NCBI RefSeq assembly: GCF_024158125.1
Contig: NZ_JAMZFT010000001.1
Span: 992,001 to 1,056,000 of the forward strand
Length of the DNA stretch: 64,000 bases
Reading direction: 5' to 3'
Source of the DNA: Futiania mangrovi
GTDB taxonomy: Bacteria > Pseudomonadota > Alphaproteobacteria > Futianiales > Futianiaceae
Below the pieces are notes generated by a model. The model made no database searches. It was not told the origin of the DNA and worked only from the letters and a program-made list of their open reading frames with translations. Below, piece after piece: positions 45,986-55,676 of the stretch (within the stretch, counting starts at the first letter, position 1; each line of letters starts with the position of its first letter). The position numbers were made by a program, and so were the translations under genes.

Positions 45986-46424
45986 CCTGTGTCCCTTCCC
46001 CATGTTCCGGGCGCCGGACCGGCCTGCCACCCGCGCGAGGGATGGAGCCGGTACGGCACTCCCGGCAGGATGACAGGAAGCCGAAGCCACATTGAGCCGC
46101 AAATCGCGGAACCCCGCCATGCGCGCGCCCGGATCTCGCCGATGTGCAACATGCACCGTGCGCCAGGGACTCGTCCGGGCGCGGTGCATCGGGGGCGGCC
46201 GCGCCTTCGAGGCAGTAATCGACCTGCCGGGGGTCCGCGTGCGTCGATGTGCGCAGCCGGGATTCGGTGCGAATATTGACTTGCGTCATAAAACAAATTC
46301 GCTAATCAAATTATGAGTTTTCGAATATGATTTGTTTGGTGTTTTTGTTTTCCGGGTATCCGGTGCCGCTGTCTCGCGGCGCACCGGACGACCGGGCCGG
46401 GTCGGGAGCCACTGGGGGATTTTC
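45986..46424. other. Non-coding region between divergent genes with inverted repeats
   Basis: This 439-bp gap holds no convincing gene; short open frames on both strands have no ribosome sites or recognisable content. ATGCACCG (46151-46158) pairs with CGGTGCAT (46182-46189), with further pairing inside. In the AT-rich part, AAACAAAT (46291-46298) and ATTTGTTT (46330-46337) form an inverted repeat around a 31-base centre. TTGACT at 46276 is a weak -35 candidate. The AT-rich part probably drives the beta-barrel gene at 46425. Confidence 0.4.
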
Positions 46425-48938
46425 ATGACGCAGCGCAAGGGACGCATCTCGGTGATCGCGGTGGGGTGCCTCACGGCGGCGGCGGGGCTGGGCGTCCATT
46501 TCGGACCGGACGCGCGCGCGCAGGACGCGGTCCAGCCGGGCGACCCCACGGTCGGGCCGACTGTGAGCGGGTTCGAGGTCAACGGCGCCATCGACCTCTC
46601 CATCGGCTTCGACGACAACGTCTTCGCGACGCGCAACGACCGCGTGTCGGACGGGCTGGCGGTGCTGGGCTGGAGTGCGTCTGCCGAACGCGACGCGACC
46701 GGGCGCGACCTGCGCATCTACGCCAGCGGCGCGCACGCCCGCCATTTCTCCGAGAGCGACGAGAACTACGACGACGTCGCGCTCGGCACCGAGGCCGGGT
46801 TCCAGGCGGCGCCAACATGGCGGCTCTTCGGCGGGCTCTCGTTCGCGCGCGCGCACGAGAGCCGCGAGTCCCCGGACGATGCCGCGGGACAGGAGCCGAC
46901 CACCTACACGGATATCGAGGCGTTCGCGGGCTCCTCGACCCAGATCGGACGAGGCAGCGTCCGCGTCGGCGCGACCTACAGCCGGCTCGACTATGACGAC
47001 GTCTCGACGGCTGGCGGCGCGCCGATCGACAATGACGACCGCGACCGTCACGAGGTCACGTTCGGAGGGCGCGGGGGCTATGACCTCGGCGGCGGATACG
47101 AGATGTTCGGCCAGGCGCTTGCCGACCTGCGCATCTATGACGATGGCGCCGACGACAATGGCTTCGACCGGGATTCCCAGGGCTATGGCGTTGCCGTCGG
47201 CCTGCGCTACGACAACCGGCGCGACCTGGAACTGCAGGCGCTCGTGGGTTACCTGCACCAGACCTATGACGACGCACTGCTGGAAAACATCGGCGCGCTC
47301 GACATCGGCCTGTCCGGCACGTGGCGGCCGACCGGGCGCACCAGGGTAACGGGCGGCATCGCCCGCAGCATCGAGGAAACGACGATCAACGGTGCGTCCG
47401 GCTATGTGCTCACCAGCTACACGCTGGGGCTGGAGCAGGCAGTGCACCCGCAGATATCGCTCGACACGTCGGTGGGCTTCTACACCAACCGCTTCGTCGG
47501 CATCGCGCGGGACGACCATGTGCTGGGTCTCAGCGCTGGCGCCCGCTATTTCCCGATGAAGCACATCTTCGTCGGCACGTCCTACGAGTACCTGCAGCGG
47601 GACTCGAGCGATCCGAACGAGGATTACGACGAGAACCGCGTGTTCCTGCGCGTCGGGGCTCAGCTTGCACCGGGCTACGATCCGGCCTTCGACTATGGCG
47701 ACGTGCCGGCGTTCGTGCCCGGCACCTATGCCGGCGTGCAGGTGGGTTACGGCAACCTCGGCACCGAGCTTGAGGGCCAGCGCGGTGGCGCGGGCGGTGG
47801 CGTCCCCGGCAGCCTGACAGCCGACTTCGGCGACCACGGACCCGAAGCCGGCATCTTCGCAGGCTGGGGCGTCGATGTCGGGAACTGGTACTTGGGGCTG
47901 GAAGCGGACGCTGCCCATTCGACCGCGGACTGGGATCATGCAAACCTGCCGGGCGAGCGCATCTTCGGCGTCGAGCGGGGTACCTCGGTCGGGTTCGGTC
48001 CGCGCTTCGGCTACCGGCTGGACGGCGGCAATCTCGTCTATGGCAGGTTCGGCCTGGCCTTGACGGAGTTCGGCACCGACTATGCCGCCCCCGACGGGGC
48101 CGGCGGCTATCGGACCGCGAGCGAGGATCACTGGCTTCCCGGCCTGCGCTTCGGCCTTGGAACAGAAGCGCCGGTCGGCGGGGGCGGCGGCTTCGTTCGG
48201 CTCGACTACAGCTACACGGCCTATCGCGACTACGACGTGCATTGGCTGACGCCGACGAGTCAGCTCCGGCGCGACAATTTCGCAAACGACGAGAGCCTGA
48301 TGCGGCTGGGCTTCGGCTGGCGGCTGGGCGCGGCGCGCGATATCCCGGCACGGCCCGCCAGTTCCTTCGACGGCGCCTATGGCGGCGTGCTCGCAGGCCA
48401 CGGCGCGCTGAACAGCGTCGAGCGGGGTGCGCGCAGCGGCGGCGCCACGACCCTGACCGCGGACCGGGGTGACACGGGCGTTGCGGGCGGTTTCTTCGGT
48501 GGCTATGGCAAGACGTTCGGCAATGTCTATGTCGGCGTCGACGCGAGCGTCGAACTGGCCGACGTGACGCGCGACAATGAACGCGATCCGAACGGGCGCG
48601 TCATCTCGACCGACCGGAGGGGAAGTGCGGGGGCAGGCGTGCGCGTCGGTTATACGCCGGACGGCAACGCGCTCTTCTACCTGCGCCTCGGCGGCACCGC
48701 GAGCGTCGTCGACACGGGCTATGAGGCTGGCGGCACGGTCTATGATCAGACGGACACGCTGACAGGCGTGAGCGTCGGCGGCGGCATCGAGATTCCCGCC
48801 TCGGACAATGCGTTCGTCCGCATGGATTACACCTACACCGACTATGGCAGCTATCGGCTTCCGCAATCGGGCGGCAACGTCGACAGCTTCGATACGGACG
48901 AGAGTATTTTCCGTGTCGGGATCGGTTTCAGGTTCTGA
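46425..48938 (+). CDS. Large outer-membrane protein with three beta-barrel modules
   Basis: The 837-residue protein has a signal peptide (cleavage near residue 33, ARAQD). Residues about 40-430 form a beta-rich module of the BBP2-like type found in outer-membrane proteins (FEVNGAIDLSIGFDDNVFATRND). From about 433 and again from about 647 follow two modules typical of small eight-strand OmpA/Omp25-like barrels, beginning GTYAGVQVGYG and GAYGGVLAGHG. The last ends in FRVGIGFRF, with the terminal Phe used by the BAM machinery. The middle module also ends LMRLGFGWRL. Such a tandem of three barrels in one chain is unusual. GGGGGA precedes the ATG. A terminator follows. Confidence 0.8.
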   Translation: MTQRKGRISVIAVGCLTAAAGLGVHFGPDARAQDAVQPGDPTVGPTVSGFEVNGAIDLSIGFDDNVFATRNDRVSDGLAVLGWSASAERDATGRDLRIYASGAHARHFSESDENYDDVALGTEAGFQAAPTWRLFGGLSFARAHESRESPDDAAGQEPTTYTDIEAFAGSSTQIGRGSVRVGATYSRLDYDDVSTAGGAPIDNDDRDRHEVTFGGRGGYDLGGGYEMFGQALADLRIYDDGADDNGFDRDSQGYGVAVGLRYDNRRDLELQALVGYLHQTYDDALLENIGALDIGLSGTWRPTGRTRVTGGIARSIEETTINGASGYVLTSYTLGLEQAVHPQISLDTSVGFYTNRFVGIARDDHVLGLSAGARYFPMKHIFVGTSYEYLQRDSSDPNEDYDENRVFLRVGAQLAPGYDPAFDYGDVPAFVPGTYAGVQVGYGNLGTELEGQRGGAGGGVPGSLTADFGDHGPEAGIFAGWGVDVGNWYLGLEADAAHSTADWDHANLPGERIFGVERGTSVGFGPRFGYRLDGGNLVYGRFGLALTEFGTDYAAPDGAGGYRTASEDHWLPGLRFGLGTEAPVGGGGGFVRLDYSYTAYRDYDVHWLTPTSQLRRDNFANDESLMRLGFGWRLGAARDIPARPASSFDGAYGGVLAGHGALNSVERGARSGGATTLTADRGDTGVAGGFFGGYGKTFGNVYVGVDASVELADVTRDNERDPNGRVISTDRRGSAGAGVRVGYTPDGNALFYLRLGGTASVVDTGYEAGGTVYDQTDTLTGVSVGGGIEIPASDNAFVRMDYTYTDYGSYRLPQSGGNVDSFDTDESIFRVGIGFRF

Positions 48939-48966
48939 AAAAAGCGCATGTTTACAACGAGTTTGG

Positions 48967-48996
48967 AAAAGGGCGCCCAACCAAGCGCCCTTTTTT
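48967..48996 (+). terminator. Rho-independent terminator after the triple-barrel gene
   Basis: AAAAGGGCGC (48967-48976) pairs with GCGCCCTTTT (48985-48994) around an eight-base loop, and the T-run continues to 48996. Confidence 0.9.
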
Positions 48997-49148
48997 CCTT
49001 TCGTTTGCGGTAGATCAAGGTTCTTGCATGTGATTAATGGCCTTCTTATTTCTGTAAAATGAGATGACGGCCTGTCGGGAAGTGCTTCCCGGGGCCGCAA
49101 GACGGACCGCCGGGCAATCTGGCGGCCAAATCGATGGGAGCGGATATT

Positions 49149-50360
49149 ATGCAGTCCAGCGTTTCGAAGTTTGCCCGCCTTCTGGGCAGCGTCGCGGTTG
49201 GCGCGATTGCCGCAGGCGCACTCACGGTCGTGCTTGCAACGGGCACGGCGGGCACCGCGTCTGCCGACAACCACGGCGGCAAGGGCGGGCAGGGCGGCCA
49301 GTCCGGCCAGATGGGCGCCAGCAAGGGCGGCAAGGGCGATGCCCGCGGTCACGGCCTTCGCGGCAAGAGCCTGATGGACGTGCTTGCCGAAGAGGACGAG
49401 GACAGCGACCGCCCCTCCTGGGCGGGTGTCCCCGGCCGTGACGGCAAGCCTGGACGCGGCAATCCGTCGTCCGGCGGCAAGAAGGGCGACCTGTTCGGCG
49501 ACATGTACGTGCTGCTGCGTGACGATAACGGCGTTCCCATTCTCGTCGTCTGGTCGGACACGAACAATGACGGCATCCCCGACAGCTATGTCGAAAGCGC
49601 GGACGGCTTCGTCCAGCCGATCGACGCCGAGGGCAACCCCATTCCGCTCGATGCGGAAGGCGCGATCTACACAGGCTTCGAGGAGGACGCCCAGGAGGTC
49701 GAACTTGGCCGCCTGAACGTCGGCCGCTCGCCCGTGTTCGTGCTGGCGACCCGCTACGAGGAAGCGGTCAACACGCTCAACGACCCGAACGTGGCGTCGC
49801 TGTCGCTCGATCCCGTCGGCCGCATCCTGATCACCTACACCGACGGCACGACGAAGACGATCGACGCGCCGCTGGAGAACCTGGCGCTCTACCTCGAGAT
49901 CATGAGCACAGGTACGCTCACCGGTGTCACGAGCACCAGCCTGTTCACCGGCGACCTCGCGAACCTCGTCGACGGAAAGCTGACGTCGGCCGACCTGCTG
50001 GATGCGGCAAGCTTCTTCGCCGCGTCCTCGGACAAGTTCGGCACGGTGGTCGAGGATACGATCATCTACATGAACCAGATCCTCGGTCTCGCGACCTACG
50101 TGGGCGACGATTACATCGACTACAAGTCGTTCACCTATGATCGCGAAACGACTTGGGGCGACGTCGAGGTCACCCTCATGCTGCCCGGCACGACCGACGG
50201 CACCTGGGTCGAGACCGACGTGAACATCTGGGAAGACTTCTTCGACGAGGCCGAAGCTTCGGGCAGCAACGTCGACGGATTTGCGACGGCCACCAACGAC
50301 CTCGTCCAGGTGATCGAGTACATCCACGAGTATGCGGTCCCGGTCACCCCGACCGAGTAA
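49149..50360 (+). CDS. Secreted protein with a Gly-rich start and a calcium-loop motif, function unknown
   Basis: The 403-residue protein has a signal peptide (residues 1-39, ending TASAD) and a Gly/Lys/Gln-rich segment (42-70). A conserved-looking domain follows (KKGDLFGDMYVLLRDDNGVP), with DTNNDGIPDS near residue 137. This loop resembles calcium-binding EF-hand or thrombospondin-3 repeats. ELGRLNVGRSPVFVLATRYEEAV and TIDAPLENLALYLEIM follow, then an acidic C-terminus. I recall similar uncharacterised proteins in other proteobacteria but cannot name a family. The ATG at 49149 is chosen because GGGAG lies eight bases upstream. It is separated from the barrel gene by a terminator. Confidence 0.7.
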   Translation: MQSSVSKFARLLGSVAVGAIAAGALTVVLATGTAGTASADNHGGKGGQGGQSGQMGASKGGKGDARGHGLRGKSLMDVLAEEDEDSDRPSWAGVPGRDGKPGRGNPSSGGKKGDLFGDMYVLLRDDNGVPILVVWSDTNNDGIPDSYVESADGFVQPIDAEGNPIPLDAEGAIYTGFEEDAQEVELGRLNVGRSPVFVLATRYEEAVNTLNDPNVASLSLDPVGRILITYTDGTTKTIDAPLENLALYLEIMSTGTLTGVTSTSLFTGDLANLVDGKLTSADLLDAASFFAASSDKFGTVVEDTIIYMNQILGLATYVGDDYIDYKSFTYDRETTWGDVEVTLMLPGTTDGTWVETDVNIWEDFFDEAEASGSNVDGFATATNDLVQVIEYIHEYAVPVTPTE

Positions 50361-50375
50361 GTCCGCACCCTGCGT

Positions 50376-50413
50376 CCGGCCGGGTCCGTTCCCCCCCTGC
50401 GCGACCCGGCCGG
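50376..50413 (+). other. Hairpin between the two secreted-protein genes
   Basis: CCGGCCGGGTC (50376-50386) and GACCCGGCCGG (50403-50413) form a perfect 11-bp stem with a 16-base C-rich loop. Only short T-runs follow, so it is more likely a processing or stability element than a full terminator. Confidence 0.55.
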
Positions 50414-50448
50414 CGCTCCTTTCCGAAGTTTCTTCCGGAGGTTCCGCG

Positions 50449-50814
50449 ATGCGAACCTGCATGACTTCCGTTCTGGCGCTGCTGCTTGCCGGTGCGCTCG
50501 GAACCGCGCTGCCGTCGGCGGCGTTTGCCCAGCATCAGTCGGGCGGCGGCGGCGGCCACACGACACATACCGACGACCATGACGACGCCAGCCACTCAGG
50601 CGGCCACACGTCCGGCACCGCGGGCCACAAGGGCAAGAGCGGCCGCGGAACGCCTGGCGGCGGCCATTCGGTGGAGGATCGCGTGTTCAGCAAGGGCCAC
50701 AGCGATTCTGGCCGCGGCAAGGGCCCGAAATACATGGGCGGCGGCGCCGGCGGCCACGAGGATGGCGAGGACCATGACCACGAAGACGGAGACGACAGCC
50801 ATTCGCACGACTGA
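50449..50814 (+). CDS. Small secreted His/Asp/Gly-rich protein
   Basis: The 121-residue protein has a signal peptide (residues 1-28, AAFAQ). The mature part is low in complexity: His, Asp and Gly clusters (TTHTDDHDDASHSGGH; DHDHEDGDDSHSHD at the end) flank a better-defined core VEDRVF and GRGKGPKYMGG. The His/Asp clusters could bind zinc, copper or nickel in the periplasm or outside. The Gly/Lys-rich segment resembles that of the preceding secreted protein, and the two probably work together. CCGGAGG precedes the ATG. Confidence 0.65.
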   Translation: MRTCMTSVLALLLAGALGTALPSAAFAQHQSGGGGGHTTHTDDHDDASHSGGHTSGTAGHKGKSGRGTPGGGHSVEDRVFSKGHSDSGRGKGPKYMGGGAGGHEDGEDHDHEDGDDSHSHD

Positions 50815-50890
50815 GTGAGGATGGTGGCGGGTGAGGGGCTCACCGGGCGGTGCCGGGTTTCCGCAGCTGCCCTAGATTGGGAGAGCGACC

Positions 50891-51226
50891 ATGAGACAAC
50901 TCGATCGGCGTAGTCTTGTCGCGGGCGCTGCCGCGCTGGCGATCGGCCTGGGCGCACTGGCCCTGACGCCAATGCCGGCAGCGGCACAGCAGGGCGATCA
51001 GATTTACGGCAGCCAGCTGATGACCGAGCAGGAACGCATGGAATACCGTGAGCGCATGCGCAACGCGCGAACCCAGGAGGAGCGCGAACGTATCCGTTCC
51101 GAACATCACATGATGGTGCAGGAACGCGCCAAGCAGCGCGGCGTCGAACTTCCGCCGGAGCCACCTGCGGGCCGAGGCGGCGGCATGCAGATGCACAAGG
51201 GCGGCGGAATGGGACGGGGCGGCTAG
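50891..51226 (+). CDS. Small exported helical protein (MTEQERMEYRERMR type)
   Basis: The 111-residue protein has a signal peptide (residues 1-33, starting with DRRSLVAGAAAL and ending AAAQ). A charged helical core follows (YGSQLMTEQERMEYRERMRNARTQEERERIRSEHHMMVQERAKQRGVELP), then a Gly/Met-rich tail (GGGMQMHKGGGMGRGG). Similar small proteins with this helical core are common in proteobacteria, without a known role. The helical core resembles Spy/CpxP-like periplasmic chaperones only in general character. The Met/His/Gly tail could bind copper. It closes the secreted-protein run. Confidence 0.7.
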   Translation: MRQLDRRSLVAGAAALAIGLGALALTPMPAAAQQGDQIYGSQLMTEQERMEYRERMRNARTQEERERIRSEHHMMVQERAKQRGVELPPEPPAGRGGGMQMHKGGGMGRGG

Positions 51227-51341: not shown

Positions 51342-52571
51342 TCAGCGGGAGCTTGCTCCGGCGACGCTCCGCGCCGTGACCGCCGTGCCGGGCGCCACGC
51401 GGTCGCCGGGATGGACGAGAACGTCCTCGCCTTCCGACAATCCGTCGCGCACTTCCGCGGAGATGCCGTCGCGGTGTCCGACCTCGACATGGCGCAGGCG
51501 GGCGACGCCGTCCTCGGCCACGAAGACCGCCCAGCGCTCCCCGTCGCGGAAGAGCGCGGTCAGCGGCACGGTCAGCGCGCGTTCGGTCTGCCACAGCACA
51601 ACGCGGATTTCCACGCGGTAGCCATGCCCGAGGCGCGCCCACGACTCCGGCGGATCCGTGAGGTCGACGACCACGTTGACGCGCTGCTCCTCGATGCCCA
51701 GGGCCGAGACCTTGGTGAAGCCATAGGGCTCCACGCGCCGGACCAAGCCCGAGAGCGGCCGCGGGCCTCCCCAGTCGTCGATCACCACCTTCTGGCCGGG
51801 CTCCACCCGGATGGCATCGGAGGACAACAGGTCCGCCACGATCTCCAGGTCGCGCGGATCGCCGATCTCCACCAGCGGGTCGCCGGCCTGTACCACGCCC
51901 GCGCTTTCCCGCAACACCCGCAGGATCCGGCCCCCGACCGGCGCGACGATGGGAATGCAGACGCATCGCCCGTGCAGGATCTGCGTCTCGACCGGGGAGA
52001 CGAGGCGGGCGCGTGCCTGCTCGACCTCGAACCGGCGCATCTCCAGCCGCGCCTCGGCCGTCGCGACGGCAGCCTTGCGCGTCTTGAAGGCCCGTTCCGC
52101 CTCGTCCAGCGCGCGCTGGGAGATCGTTTCGCGCCGGATCAGTTCGCGCGCACGCTCAAGCTCCGCCACGCTGAAGTCGAGTTCCGCCTTTGCCTGGTCC
52201 AGTTCCGCGCGGGCGAGTTGCAGCGCCGATTGAGCGGCCCGCAGCGCGGCATCCGCTTCGCCTTCGGAGCGCACATCCAGGAAGCCGGGGTCGGCAGGCT
52301 CGATCTGCGCCACCTCCGTCTCGTCTGCAACGACCGCGTCGCCCACGTCCAGTTCGATCCGGCGCAGGCGCCCGCCGACGGGGGCGGAGAGCACGAAGAC
52401 GTCGCGCACGCGCGCCTCGCCCTCCTCGTCGATCGTGACGGTCATCGGGCCGGGTTCAACCCGGGCCAGGTCCACGGGCACGGGACGCGGCCAGAACGCG
52501 AACGCGAGGCCTCCCGCCAGCGCGAGGACCAGGATCCCCCAGATCGCGAGCCGCCGCCATTTGAGCGCCAT
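51342..52571 (-). CDS. Periplasmic adaptor of an ABC exporter (HlyD/MacA-like)
   Basis: The 409-residue protein has one N-terminal membrane helix (about residues 8-26). Then follow a lipoyl half (VFVLSAPVGGRLRRIELDVGDAV), a long helical hairpin (about 100-195, ALRAAQSALQLARAELDQAKAELD), the second lipoyl half (VAPVGGRILRVLRESAGVVQAGDPLVEI) and a beta-barrel domain. This is the adaptor layout that links an inner-membrane exporter with an outer-membrane channel. It ends the three-gene operon with the permease and ATPase. No TolC-like gene is in the window. Confidence 0.88.
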   Translation of the reverse strand: MALKWRRLAIWGILVLALAGGLAFAFWPRPVPVDLARVEPGPMTVTIDEEGEARVRDVFVLSAPVGGRLRRIELDVGDAVVADETEVAQIEPADPGFLDVRSEGEADAALRAAQSALQLARAELDQAKAELDFSVAELERARELIRRETISQRALDEAERAFKTRKAAVATAEARLEMRRFEVEQARARLVSPVETQILHGRCVCIPIVAPVGGRILRVLRESAGVVQAGDPLVEIGDPRDLEIVADLLSSDAIRVEPGQKVVIDDWGGPRPLSGLVRRVEPYGFTKVSALGIEEQRVNVVVDLTDPPESWARLGHGYRVEIRVVLWQTERALTVPLTALFRDGERWAVFVAEDGVARLRHVEVGHRDGISAEVRDGLSEGEDVLVHPGDRVAPGTAVTARSVAGASSR

Positions 52572-52578
52572 GACGTGT

Positions 52579-54942
52579 CTACTCCCGGGTCTTGAGGACG
52601 GAAATCAGGTCGAGCCGGTCCAGACGCCAGCGCACAAGGTACGCGGACGCCGCCGTGGCGGCCAGACCGATGAGGACCGCCCAGCCATAGGTCGCGGGCG
52701 CCACGACGAGGGGCACGCGGAACAGTTCGGTCTCGAAGCCTGCGACGATGAGTGCGGCCAGGCCATAGCCCGCGATGCAGCCCGCCGGCAGCGCCAGAAA
52801 CACGAGCACCGCCACTTCGCCCAGGAGGATATAGGCGATCTCCCCGCGCGTGAAGCCGAGCACGCGCAGCGTTGCAAGCTCGCGGCCCCGCTCCGACAGC
52901 GAGATGCGCGCACTGTTGTAGACGACCCCGAACGCCAGCGTGCAGGCGAAGACGACGAAGAAGGAGACGTAGATAAGCAGCGTGTCGCCCAGCGTCTGGT
53001 GAAAGGTCTGCACGGCGGCCTTGCGGATCGTCACGCCGGCTACCGCGGGCAGTTCCTTCAGTTCCGCATGGATCGCGGACACGTACAGGGGATCGACCAG
53101 CAGGTGCACCTGCTCGGCGCGCGGACCTTCACGCATCAGCCGGTCCAACGCGCCGATCCGCATGTAGGCAGGCGTCCCGATGAATGTTTCGATGATCGCG
53201 GTCACGGGAAGGTCGTGTACCGGGCGGCGGCCCTCGCGCACCTCCACGCGGACCAGGTCGCCCGCGTCCACGCCGAGCTTGCGCGCCAGTGTGGATGAGA
53301 GCAGCAACCCCTCCGGCGGCGGCGCAACCGCCCCGCGTTCCACATCGTACAGCAGGTTGAGGCGCGGCTCCTCCACGATGCCCTGGATCCCGCCCCGATG
53401 GGTGCGCGGACCCGCATGGAAGGTGACGGCGACGTAGCGGCCGGGCTCCGCCGCCAGGACGCCCGGCAGCCGTTCGAACGACCACACGGCAGAGCGCGGC
53501 TTGGTCTCGGCGAAACCCACCGTCATGTCTAGGCGCTGCTGCTCGTGGAAGGTGATGTCCACCATCCGGTCGATGGCGTCGAGCCATTGCATGGAGGTCA
53601 CGAGCACCGCGACCGACATGCCGATCCCGGATACGGTGAGCGCCGAGCGCACCGGCCAGCGCGCGAGCTGGCGCAGGAAGATCCGCGTCGGCTGGTCGAT
53701 CCAGCGTTCGAGCGCGGGTCCGTGCAGGCGCGTCTTGCGGTAGCGCGGCGGGGCAGGGGGGCGCATCGCCTCGGCTGGCGGCAGCCGGGCGGCCCTGCTC
53801 ACGGCACCTAGGCTTCCCGCCAGCGCCGCTCCCAGGCTGACGACCGCGGCAATGGCGAACCCGGACGGTCCGGGGCGGAAATAGAGGAAGGGAAAGCGAT
53901 AGAACTGGGCATAGACCTCGGTATTGTAGCGGCCGAGCCAGGCACCCGCCGCCCAGCCGAGCAGGATGCCGATGCCGGTCATCAGGATCACGAGTTTGGC
54001 GTAGTGCCAGCCGACCTCGAGATTGCTGTAGCCGAACGCCTTCATCAGGCCGATCTCGGCCCGCTCCGTCGCGATCAGACGGGCCAGAACCATGTGGGTC
54101 AGGAAAGCTGCAACCACCAGGAAGATCGTCGGCAGGATGCGCGCCATAGAGCGCAACTGGGCGATTTCGTTCATCAGGAACCAGTTGGACAGCTGTTCGG
54201 CACGCGCGTAGGCGCCGAGACCGCCGTAGGGTTCCAGGAGGCGGTCGAGCGCGGCGATGACCGTCGGTGTGCGTGCATCGGGCATGAGAGCCAGCGAAAT
54301 CTCGTTGAAGGCGCCGTCGAGATCGAAGGCCGCCTCCAGCGCGCCGCGCCCCATCCAGAGCACGCCGAAGCGCTTCTCGTCCGGCATCAGCTGTCCGGGC
54401 CCCAGCGCATAGACGTACTCCGGCGACAGGGCGGTGCCGACGACGCGCAAGGTGCGCTTGCGCCCGTTGAGGATCGCCGCGAGCGTGTCGCCGGGCCTCA
54501 GGCCGTGCGCCTCCGCGAAGGGTTCGGCCAGCACGACCTCGTCGGAGCGGCCGGGCTCGGCGAGGCGCCCTTGCCGGACGGCCAGCCGGTTGAGGCGTGC
54601 TGCCCCCCGCTCCGGCAGGGAGACGAGCTGGCCCACAACCGGCTCGCCGAAGCCCGGTACGTCGAGGGTGGCAGTCTCGACGATGCGCGTCTCGACCGTG
54701 CGCACCCCGTCGATCTCGGCCGCCCGGACGGCGATACGTTCGGGCGCACGCGTCAAGACGGCGAAGACGTCAGCGAAGTCAAAGGCCTCGTAGTAGGCCT
54801 CCGCCGTCTCCTCCAGCGCCTCGATGGAGGTGAGCGACATGACGAGAACGGCCACGCCCGATGCTACGACCAGCGCGACCGCCAGCACCTGGCCGCGCAG
54901 GCGCGACAGGTCGCGCAGGAGTTTGCGGTCGAGCGCGCGCAT
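52579..54942 (-). CDS. ABC exporter permease with two FtsX domains (MacB-like)
   Basis: The 787-residue protein has the ABC3 permease layout: an N-terminal helix (GQVLAVALVVASGVAVLVMSL), a periplasmic MacB-type domain, and an FtsX domain near residues 270-390 (LRSMARILPTIFLVVAAFLTHMVLARLIATERAEIGLMKAFGYS). A second copy follows, starting RSALTVSGIGMSVAVLVTSMQWLDAIDRM and ending with another FtsX domain (LATLRVLGFTRGEIAYILLGE). Such permeases move lipids, peptides or drugs with energy from a separate ATPase. The start is a weak point: no good ribosome site stands before ATG 54942, and overlapping translation from the ATPase gene is likely. Confidence 0.88.
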   Translation of the reverse strand: MRALDRKLLRDLSRLRGQVLAVALVVASGVAVLVMSLTSIEALEETAEAYYEAFDFADVFAVLTRAPERIAVRAAEIDGVRTVETRIVETATLDVPGFGEPVVGQLVSLPERGAARLNRLAVRQGRLAEPGRSDEVVLAEPFAEAHGLRPGDTLAAILNGRKRTLRVVGTALSPEYVYALGPGQLMPDEKRFGVLWMGRGALEAAFDLDGAFNEISLALMPDARTPTVIAALDRLLEPYGGLGAYARAEQLSNWFLMNEIAQLRSMARILPTIFLVVAAFLTHMVLARLIATERAEIGLMKAFGYSNLEVGWHYAKLVILMTGIGILLGWAAGAWLGRYNTEVYAQFYRFPFLYFRPGPSGFAIAAVVSLGAALAGSLGAVSRAARLPPAEAMRPPAPPRYRKTRLHGPALERWIDQPTRIFLRQLARWPVRSALTVSGIGMSVAVLVTSMQWLDAIDRMVDITFHEQQRLDMTVGFAETKPRSAVWSFERLPGVLAAEPGRYVAVTFHAGPRTHRGGIQGIVEEPRLNLLYDVERGAVAPPPEGLLLSSTLARKLGVDAGDLVRVEVREGRRPVHDLPVTAIIETFIGTPAYMRIGALDRLMREGPRAEQVHLLVDPLYVSAIHAELKELPAVAGVTIRKAAVQTFHQTLGDTLLIYVSFFVVFACTLAFGVVYNSARISLSERGRELATLRVLGFTRGEIAYILLGEVAVLVFLALPAGCIAGYGLAALIVAGFETELFRVPLVVAPATYGWAVLIGLAATAASAYLVRWRLDRLDLISVLKTRE

Positions 54943-54947
54943 CGCCG

Positions 54948-55676
54948 CTACCAGGACAGCGCGCGGGCGGGCTGGCGCTGCGCGTTGTGCCAGGTCTCGA
55001 CGATGCGTCCGTCCGCGAAGCTCACGACCCGGTCTGCCATGCCGCCGATGGACCTGTTGTGCGTGATCAGTGCCGTCGTGGTGCCGAGCCGCCGGTTCAC
55101 ACTCTCGATCGCCTCCAGCACGAGGATGCCCGTCTCGCTGTCGAGCGCGCCCGTCGGCTCGTCGCACAGGAGCACGTCCGGCTGCTTGGCGATGGCGCGG
55201 GCGATGGCAACGCGCTGCTGCTCGCCGCCCGAGAGTTGCGCGGGGAAATGGTCGAGCCGCTCCTCCAGGCCGACAAGCCCTAGCGCCTCGGCCGGATCCA
55301 TGGGGGCGCGCGCGATCTCGGTGACGAGAGCCACGTTCTCCCGCGCCGTCAGGCTGGGGATCAGGTTGTAGAACTGGAAGACGAAGCCGACATGGTCGCG
55401 CCGGTAGGCGGTCAGCGCCCGGTCGTCGTGTCCCTCAAGCTCCTCGCCGCGGAAGAACAGGCGGCCCTCGGTCGGCGTATCGAGCCCGCCCAGGATGTTC
55501 AGCAAGGTCGACTTGCCGCTGCCCGACGGCCCGAGCAGGACCGCAAGTTCACCTTCCGCGAGGTCGAGGTCGATGCCACGTAACGCATGAACCTCGACCT
55601 CCCCGGTCCTGTAGACCTTGGTGAGGCCCTTTGCCTGCAGGACGGTCCGCTTTTCCTCGGTGTCTGCAATGGTCAT
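54948..55676 (-). CDS. ABC exporter ATP-binding protein (MacB/LolD-like)
   Basis: The 242-residue ATPase has Walker A (GPSGSGKST), the LolD/MacB-type stretch [25 protein letters not shown], signature [15 protein letters not shown] and Walker B ([13 protein letters not shown]). It drives the two-FtsX permease coded downstream, five bases after its stop. It is the first gene of the exporter operon. The 200 bp upstream, before the tRNA-Ser gene, hold no gene I can support. Confidence 0.92.

Follow-up and report, generated by a model that had tools for sequence, protein, structure and literature searches.

A predicted triple-barrel outer-membrane protein is tied to an exported partner protein across proteobacterial genomes and may belong to a cell-surface system

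In a 64,000-nucleotide stretch of the Futiania mangrovi genome (contig NZ_JAMZFT010000001.1, positions 992,001 to 1,056,000; hereafter the window), a gene for a predicted triple-barrel outer-membrane protein (B) is followed by genes for three exported proteins (P1, P2 and P3; Table 1). Genome comparison shows that B and P1 are tied together, with P2 as a companion and P3 as an optional neighbour, a more ordered arrangement than the first-pass annotation had seen when it grouped all four genes. Our tentatively preferred reading is that B, P1 and P2 together make up a dedicated system at the cell surface, in which B would deliver P1 and P2 to the surface or hold them there. No publication on the B-P1-P2-P3 gene set appeared among the matches listed for the open-licence PMC literature, which is no proof of its absence from print.

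The genes for P1, P2 and P3 are three open reading frames (ORFs) with ATG starts on one strand, placed where the first-pass annotation had them. Each is preceded by a purine-rich ribosome-binding stretch and encodes a signal-peptide-like N terminus, and no Pfam or NCBIfam family matched any of the three, so the description of three same-strand genes with signal peptides and without a known family or function was borne out. Gaps of 210 nt (B-P1), 88 nt (P1-P2) and 76 nt (P2-P3) separate the genes. Homologues keep the same order in other genomes, which makes P1, P2 and P3 more than chance ORFs, and the genome holds one clear copy each of P1 and P2 (next-best P2 match, E 0.012). P2 contains 23% Gly, 12% His, 11% Asp and 11% Ser and ends in a His-rich tail, as its label of a His/Asp-rich protein implied. 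The same annotation called all three proteins low-complexity, but they are not alike in this; in P1 the term applies only to residues 41-72 (44% Gly). A 1383-aa antisense ORF overlies B and P1 (window 46311-50462, minus strand), and similar long ones in 65 loci are, like it, probably the codon-bias shadow of GC-rich genes. Past P3, the opposite strand (window 51345-55676, minus) carries genes for HlyD, an FtsX/MacB-like permease and an ABC ATPase, the last named by eye from its sequence.

Table 1. Positions of B, P1, P2 and P3 and of their main features in the window.
Feature	Position	Strand	Basis
B, triple-barrel outer-membrane protein (predicted), 837 aa, signal-peptide-like start	46425..48938	+	Pfam + AlphaFold2
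B barrel 1, residues 50-413, 18 strands, BBP2_2 type	46572..47663	+	Pfam + AlphaFold2
B barrel 2, residues 430-634, 8 strands	47712..48326	+	AlphaFold2
B barrel 3, residues 650-836, 8 strands	48372..48932	+	Pfam + AlphaFold2
Intrinsic-terminator-like hairpin and T tract, between B and P1	48965..48996	+	
P1, 403 aa: signal peptide, Gly-rich leader, domain at about 116-400 without a detected known fold	49149..50360	+	
P1 motif DSDRPSWAG, residues 85-93; conserved, low confidence in monomer model	49401..49427	+	
P1 calcium-loop-like insertion DTNNDGIPD, residues 137-145; not family-conserved	49557..49583	+	
P2, secreted, His/Gly/Asp/Ser-rich, 121 aa	50449..50814	+	
P2 motif HSVEDRVF	50665..50688	+	
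P2 motif GKGPKYMGG	50716..50742	+	
P3, small helical exported protein, Gly/Met/His tail, 111 aa, optional neighbour	50891..51226	+	

B is predicted to be an outer-membrane protein with three barrels in one chain. An AlphaFold2 model built from 56 sequences (the long variants of loci L057 and L063 and chains under 700 aa were left out of the alignment) has a pLDDT of 87.8, a pTM of 0.82 and 18 + 8 + 8 strands, in agreement with the term 'triple barrel' that the protein already carried. With the start taken one codon earlier, Pfam family BBP2_2 (PF10082) matches residues 43-414 at 236.1 bits against a gathering cut-off of 23.7, and OMP_b-brl matches the C-terminal part at 86 bits. A Foldseek search of the Protein Data Bank (PDB) returned numerous porins and TonB receptors with low TM-scores, the Mtr complex being in the top row; these matches would indicate a barrel and nothing more specific.

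Barrel 1 also has a distant similarity to EpsL (TIGR03014), an exosortase-associated outer-membrane protein whose model matches B residues 261-413 at 1.1e-13. On this basis B could be an EpsL/BBP2-type polymer porin, with P1 and P2 as matrix proteins; barrels of 18 strands occur elsewhere together with genes for polysaccharide export, according to the available part of PMC9603273, and the source records of our loci include two glass-biofilm isolates and one biocathode isolate. We nevertheless regard a role in matrix or exopolysaccharide export as unlikely. The EpsL score, 51 bits, is far below the family cut-off of 275, and a polysaccharide locus was rejected, as none of the 25 families commonest in the 129 flanking genes was of that kind and none turned up in the neighbouring window genes scanned. 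The flanking scan covered 129 of 131 first-neighbour genes and left out a very long gene at L055 and the RTX ORF at L074.

The partnership of B and P1 was examined in class-level and family-level genome sets and in 77 P1 loci, of which 74 came from a pattern scan and the others were two genome stretches and the window (L007 was dropped as the same genome as L047). P1 occurred in four of 289 genomes of the class (G000, G041, G092 and G153), from four families, and full-length B occurred in the same four; the other 66 of the 70 B-positive class genomes had single-barrel parts only, among the matches listed. With the F. mangrovi genome itself left out and shared ancestry ignored, the chance of three in 288 coinciding is about 2.5e-7. 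The family of G153 (149 genomes) had P1 in six genomes and B in three, with P1 beside B in all three. Where at least 2.5 kb of upstream sequence was available, B lay directly upstream of P1 on the same strand in 53 of 69 loci. Sixteen others included L027, with B 703 nt from P1, and L071, with B split over two frames; for the remaining 14, whole-genome searches found full-length B elsewhere in one genome (G657, locus L049), long B variants matched over the first barrel in two (G659 and G660), matches only to the 8-strand part of B in two (G656 and G665) and no B in nine. Distances among P1 sequences correlate with those among B sequences (r 0.877, 54 loci; none of 500 permutations reached this value), although common descent alone could also be a source of this correlation. 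B is not indispensable, since P1s with signal peptides exist without a detected B (L023, L070 and G740) or with matches only to its 8-strand part (L028 and L077).

The genes flanking B and P1 vary between loci. Crp/Fnr-type regulators make up 17 of the 129 flanking genes scanned, and Thiobacillus-type loci have one of about 234 aa just upstream of B (for example, L056:6248-6949), whose N terminus looks Cys-rich by eye, a feature that would point to an FNR-type redox sensor. Where B is a long variant (about 1100-1200 aa), multihaem cytochromes with Cytochrome_cB and MtrC/MtrF-like domains are encoded near P1 (L057:7667-9235 and L063:4703-6130).

P2-type genes were recognized by a GPKYxGG-type motif together with a SVEDRVF-type motif, using patterns written after the P2 sequences had been viewed. 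In 68 loci the sequence extends 700 nt or more beyond P1. Of these, 29 had such a gene after P1 and eight more had a second P1-like gene there, giving P2 or a P1-like paralogue in 37; neither was detected by the strict two-motif test in the other 31. ORFs that resemble P2 by eye and fail the strict patterns were seen in L011, L034, L039 and L063. A test that combined the two motifs with composition selected not one of the 10849 other ORFs of these loci, and five had the first motif alone. Of two B loci added later, L157 has a P2-type gene and L158 does not. In Desertibaculum (L047, the genome G092), the gene in the place of P2 encodes a longer protein that includes a P1-like domain.

These counts bear on the possibility that the four genes adjoin one another while each has a role of its own, and that only the B-P1 pairing is meaningful. 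The terminator-like hairpin between B and P1 in the window means that a single transcript of all four genes is not assured, most P3-bearing genomes hold P3 on its own, and 31 loci showed no P2 or P1-like paralogue; against this, 29 loci have a P2-motif gene after P1, and the same test picked out no background ORF. Unrelated roles for the four genes thus seem distinctly unlikely to us. A terminator conserved between B and P1 was itself rejected as a general feature, with such hairpins in eight of 58 B-P1 gaps compared with one of 58 shuffled ones.

P1 and P2 have a short linear motif in common, RPxWAG in P1 and GPKYxGG in P2. The fuller forms are [E/D]DSDRPxWAG and GKGPKYxGG, the latter often after S-[VL]-E-x-x-[VI]-[LF]. 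In L020 and L031 the P1 protein has GPHYGG or GPKYSG at the RPxWAG position, after NIEDKVF or SVESEVL, and for this reason we take the two motifs to be equivalent. RPxWAG is also kept in the B-less L023 and L070 and in the Bacteroidota forms of P1, so the partner of the motif may be something other than B, such as the P1 domain itself.

The P1 model (75 sequences) combines a disordered Gly-rich start with a confidently predicted domain at residues of about 116-400, with pLDDT above 90 over most of residues 121-395; it is mixed helix and strand with a helix at the end. Eleven positions are invariant in the alignment (D118, R124, G128, R188, R193, V198, D221, G224, R225, D239 and P241). Members of the alignment matched no Pfam or NCBIfam family over the P1 core; RTX models from these databases matched only 3-4 of the 75, and RHS/YD-repeat and LytB_SH3 models gave weak matches in one or two. 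With the whole model as query, Foldseek found no fold at E 0.001 or better in the PDB, and the best VIA-align result was Z 2.7 over 55 residues. A comparison with viral models was likewise empty at E 0.001 or better, sequence searches of the PDB gave credible matches only to the RTX tails of four members, and plasmids gave no match to P1. The absence of a structural match does not imply a new fold.

The polar residues of the P1 motif at 85-93 (DSDRPSWAG) are kept in 87-91% of rows, yet the segment is poorly ordered in the monomer model, a pattern typical of a docking motif, which this segment may therefore be. The contig scan that supplied most relatives was built on the patterns KKGDLxGD and DSDRPxWA, so conservation of these stretches is inflated; a DSDRPxWA-type motif is nonetheless present in signal-peptide-type P1s found without that pattern (G153, G041, G092 and G804).

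Other forms of P1 point to where its domain works. Four relatives (L073, L078, L079 and L080) have C-terminal RTX repeats and no signal peptide, in L074 the RTX part is a separate ORF, and a search of the family of G153 yielded P1 frames of 580 and 595 aa with RTX repeats and no B (L154 and L155). One of these genes (L073) lies downstream of TolC-like, ABC and HlyD genes, and B was detected in none of the seven RTX-type genomes. A hydrophobic N-terminal segment is absent only in these first five loci and in L031, which is cut by a contig end. In two Bacteroidota loci, L055 and L064 (Mangrovibacterium and a Cytophagales record), P1 begins with a lipobox-like start, and B was again not detected in the genomes. 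RTX proteins leave the cell by type I secretion, so the P1 domain most likely acts outside the cell; where P1 has neither RTX repeats nor a lipid anchor, its delivery or anchoring is most likely the task of B. Separately, further proteins near two loci with signal-peptide P1s carry 18 and 8 RTX-like repeats (L072:11073-13430 and L033:5044-7041, respectively).

The RTX repeats of these relatives and the calcium-loop-like insertion in the window's P1 could also be read as signs of an RTX-like or S-layer-like coat, in which P1 would form a calcium-stabilized surface lattice. This is very unlikely, as the window's P1 has no RTX repeats, P1-type proteins are single-domain and about 400 aa, and calcium-type loops occur in only six of the 77 P1s, at differing places. 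The first-pass annotation was right about a Gly-rich P1 with a calcium-loop motif, but the loop is not a property of the family: at the window's position it is found only in the window and in Fodinicurvata (L026), an EF-hand or thrombospondin-3-like loop is not conserved across P1 proteins, and calcium binding as a common theme was rejected.

P3 behaves differently from P1 and P2. Its core (YGxxLMTxxE ... EHHxxM ... RA) occurs alone in many proteobacteria and belongs to no known family (L145 and L140-L143). Ten of the 77 P1 loci have it: it lies downstream of P1 in six (the window, L020, L047, L049, L053 and L071), precedes B in three (L065, L067 and L081) and is at a distance of 4.2 kb in L057; in L047, L053 and L081 the ORF extends upstream of the likely start, which leaves the core unaffected. 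Among 398 genomes of the phylum, three have P1 and 16 have P3, and 15 of those 16 show no P1. A class-level P3 search did not serve as an association test, since its profile came from P1 loci and so favours them. P3, a small exported protein, is widespread and turns up repeatedly next to B-P1, but it stands outside the core; it was rejected as a fixed member, and with it the earlier assignment of the third protein to the set. Of the four genes whose co-occurrence the first-pass annotation had proposed to check, B, P1 and, less regularly, P2 do occur together. No common partner was seen by eye around six P3 genes elsewhere (L140-L145), comparison with solved structures gave nothing credible, and ten P3 members showed no match to the LTXXQ/Spy-CpxP family at E up to 0.1. 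The P3 signal peptide (window 50891-50990) starts MRQLDRRSLVAG and may on that account be of the twin-arginine kind; in some relatives the start is of the plain Sec type.

P3 does have the Met/His/Gly tail first described for it, along with a conserved His-His pair and a conserved Met, and the His/Asp richness of P2 would fit metal binding. Together with the His-rich tail of P2, these features could suit periplasmic metal handling, with B as a specialized porin for a metal or ligand and P1, P2 and P3 as periplasmic binders; the 129 flanking genes include five MerR, four E1-E2 ATPase and two Nramp genes. However, such neighbours are few among 129, P3 is optional, and the P1 relatives that carry RTX repeats or a lipobox-like start speak for a site outside the cell, so we consider periplasmic metal handling rather unlikely.

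Under the preferred reading of a surface system, signal peptides would bring P1 and P2 to the periplasm, and B would pass them across the outer membrane or hold them on its outside, recognizing both through their common motif. The P1 domain would be the working module displayed outside, and P2 a small, probably metal-binding companion that bears this motif as well. Where no B was detected, the P1 domain would often reach the exterior by another route, either type I secretion with RTX repeats or, in Bacteroidota, lipidation. A surface location in F. mangrovi would be part of this scheme; any physiological role, adhesion, S-layer formation or metal handling included, is putative. The first-pass idea of an uncharacterized surface system around the barrel protein thus survives for P1 and P2, through co-occurrence, synteny and the RTX and lipoprotein forms, and lapses for P3. 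A bolder version, an undescribed delivery system in which a triple-barrel translocon or scaffold reads an aromatic-Gly motif on cargo of unsolved fold, with RTX repeats or lipidation as substitutes in some lineages, strikes us as rather unlikely.

Several known systems resemble this arrangement in part. Multi-barrel outer-membrane proteins carry more than one beta-barrel per chain (Solan et al. 2021, PNAS, via the available parts of PMC8592465 and PMC9603273); B is predicted to do the same, with 8-stranded barrels among its three. The two-barrel example YjbH/GfcD belongs to polysaccharide loci in the available text of the same two sources, whereas B is predicted to have 18 + 8 + 8 strands and is accompanied by an exported protein for which no known fold was detected. 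Type XI secretion (Slam; DUF560, PF04575), as described in the accessible portion of PMC8406197, has a 14-stranded barrel encoded beside signal-peptide cargo of lipidated and soluble types, much as B is encoded beside exported, signal-peptide-bearing proteins. B differs from Slam in scoring 16.3 bits against a SlipAM gathering cut-off of 22, in the 18 predicted strands of its first barrel and in having no folded N-terminal domain; Slam cargo in that portion has a C-terminal 8-stranded barrel, whereas the P1 model is mixed alpha/beta with a helix at the end. Nonapeptide tails on some P1 relatives are a likeness to RTX proteins of type I secretion (available part of PMC3034196), from which the window's P1 differs by its signal peptide and its lack of glycine/aspartate-rich nonapeptide repeats. 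In type IX secretion, the parts of PMC9143113 at hand describe type B CTD proteins with PorP-like anchors, in which a barrel holds a secreted partner at the surface; for B and P1 this is an analogy only. The B-P1-P2 set is best filed as a variant of barrel-plus-cargo surface systems with a putative function.

The pairing of a triple barrel with a single partner gene, maintained in three classes of proteobacteria, offers a concrete case for testing what multi-barrel outer-membrane proteins are for. P1 itself invites structural study, as neither Pfam nor NCBIfam has a family for it and no solved fold was detected. Its RTX-bearing and lipoprotein-type relatives suggest that B takes the place of a delivery route, an idea open to direct testing in strains that can be cultured, for example Thiobacillus thioparus or Roseovarius.
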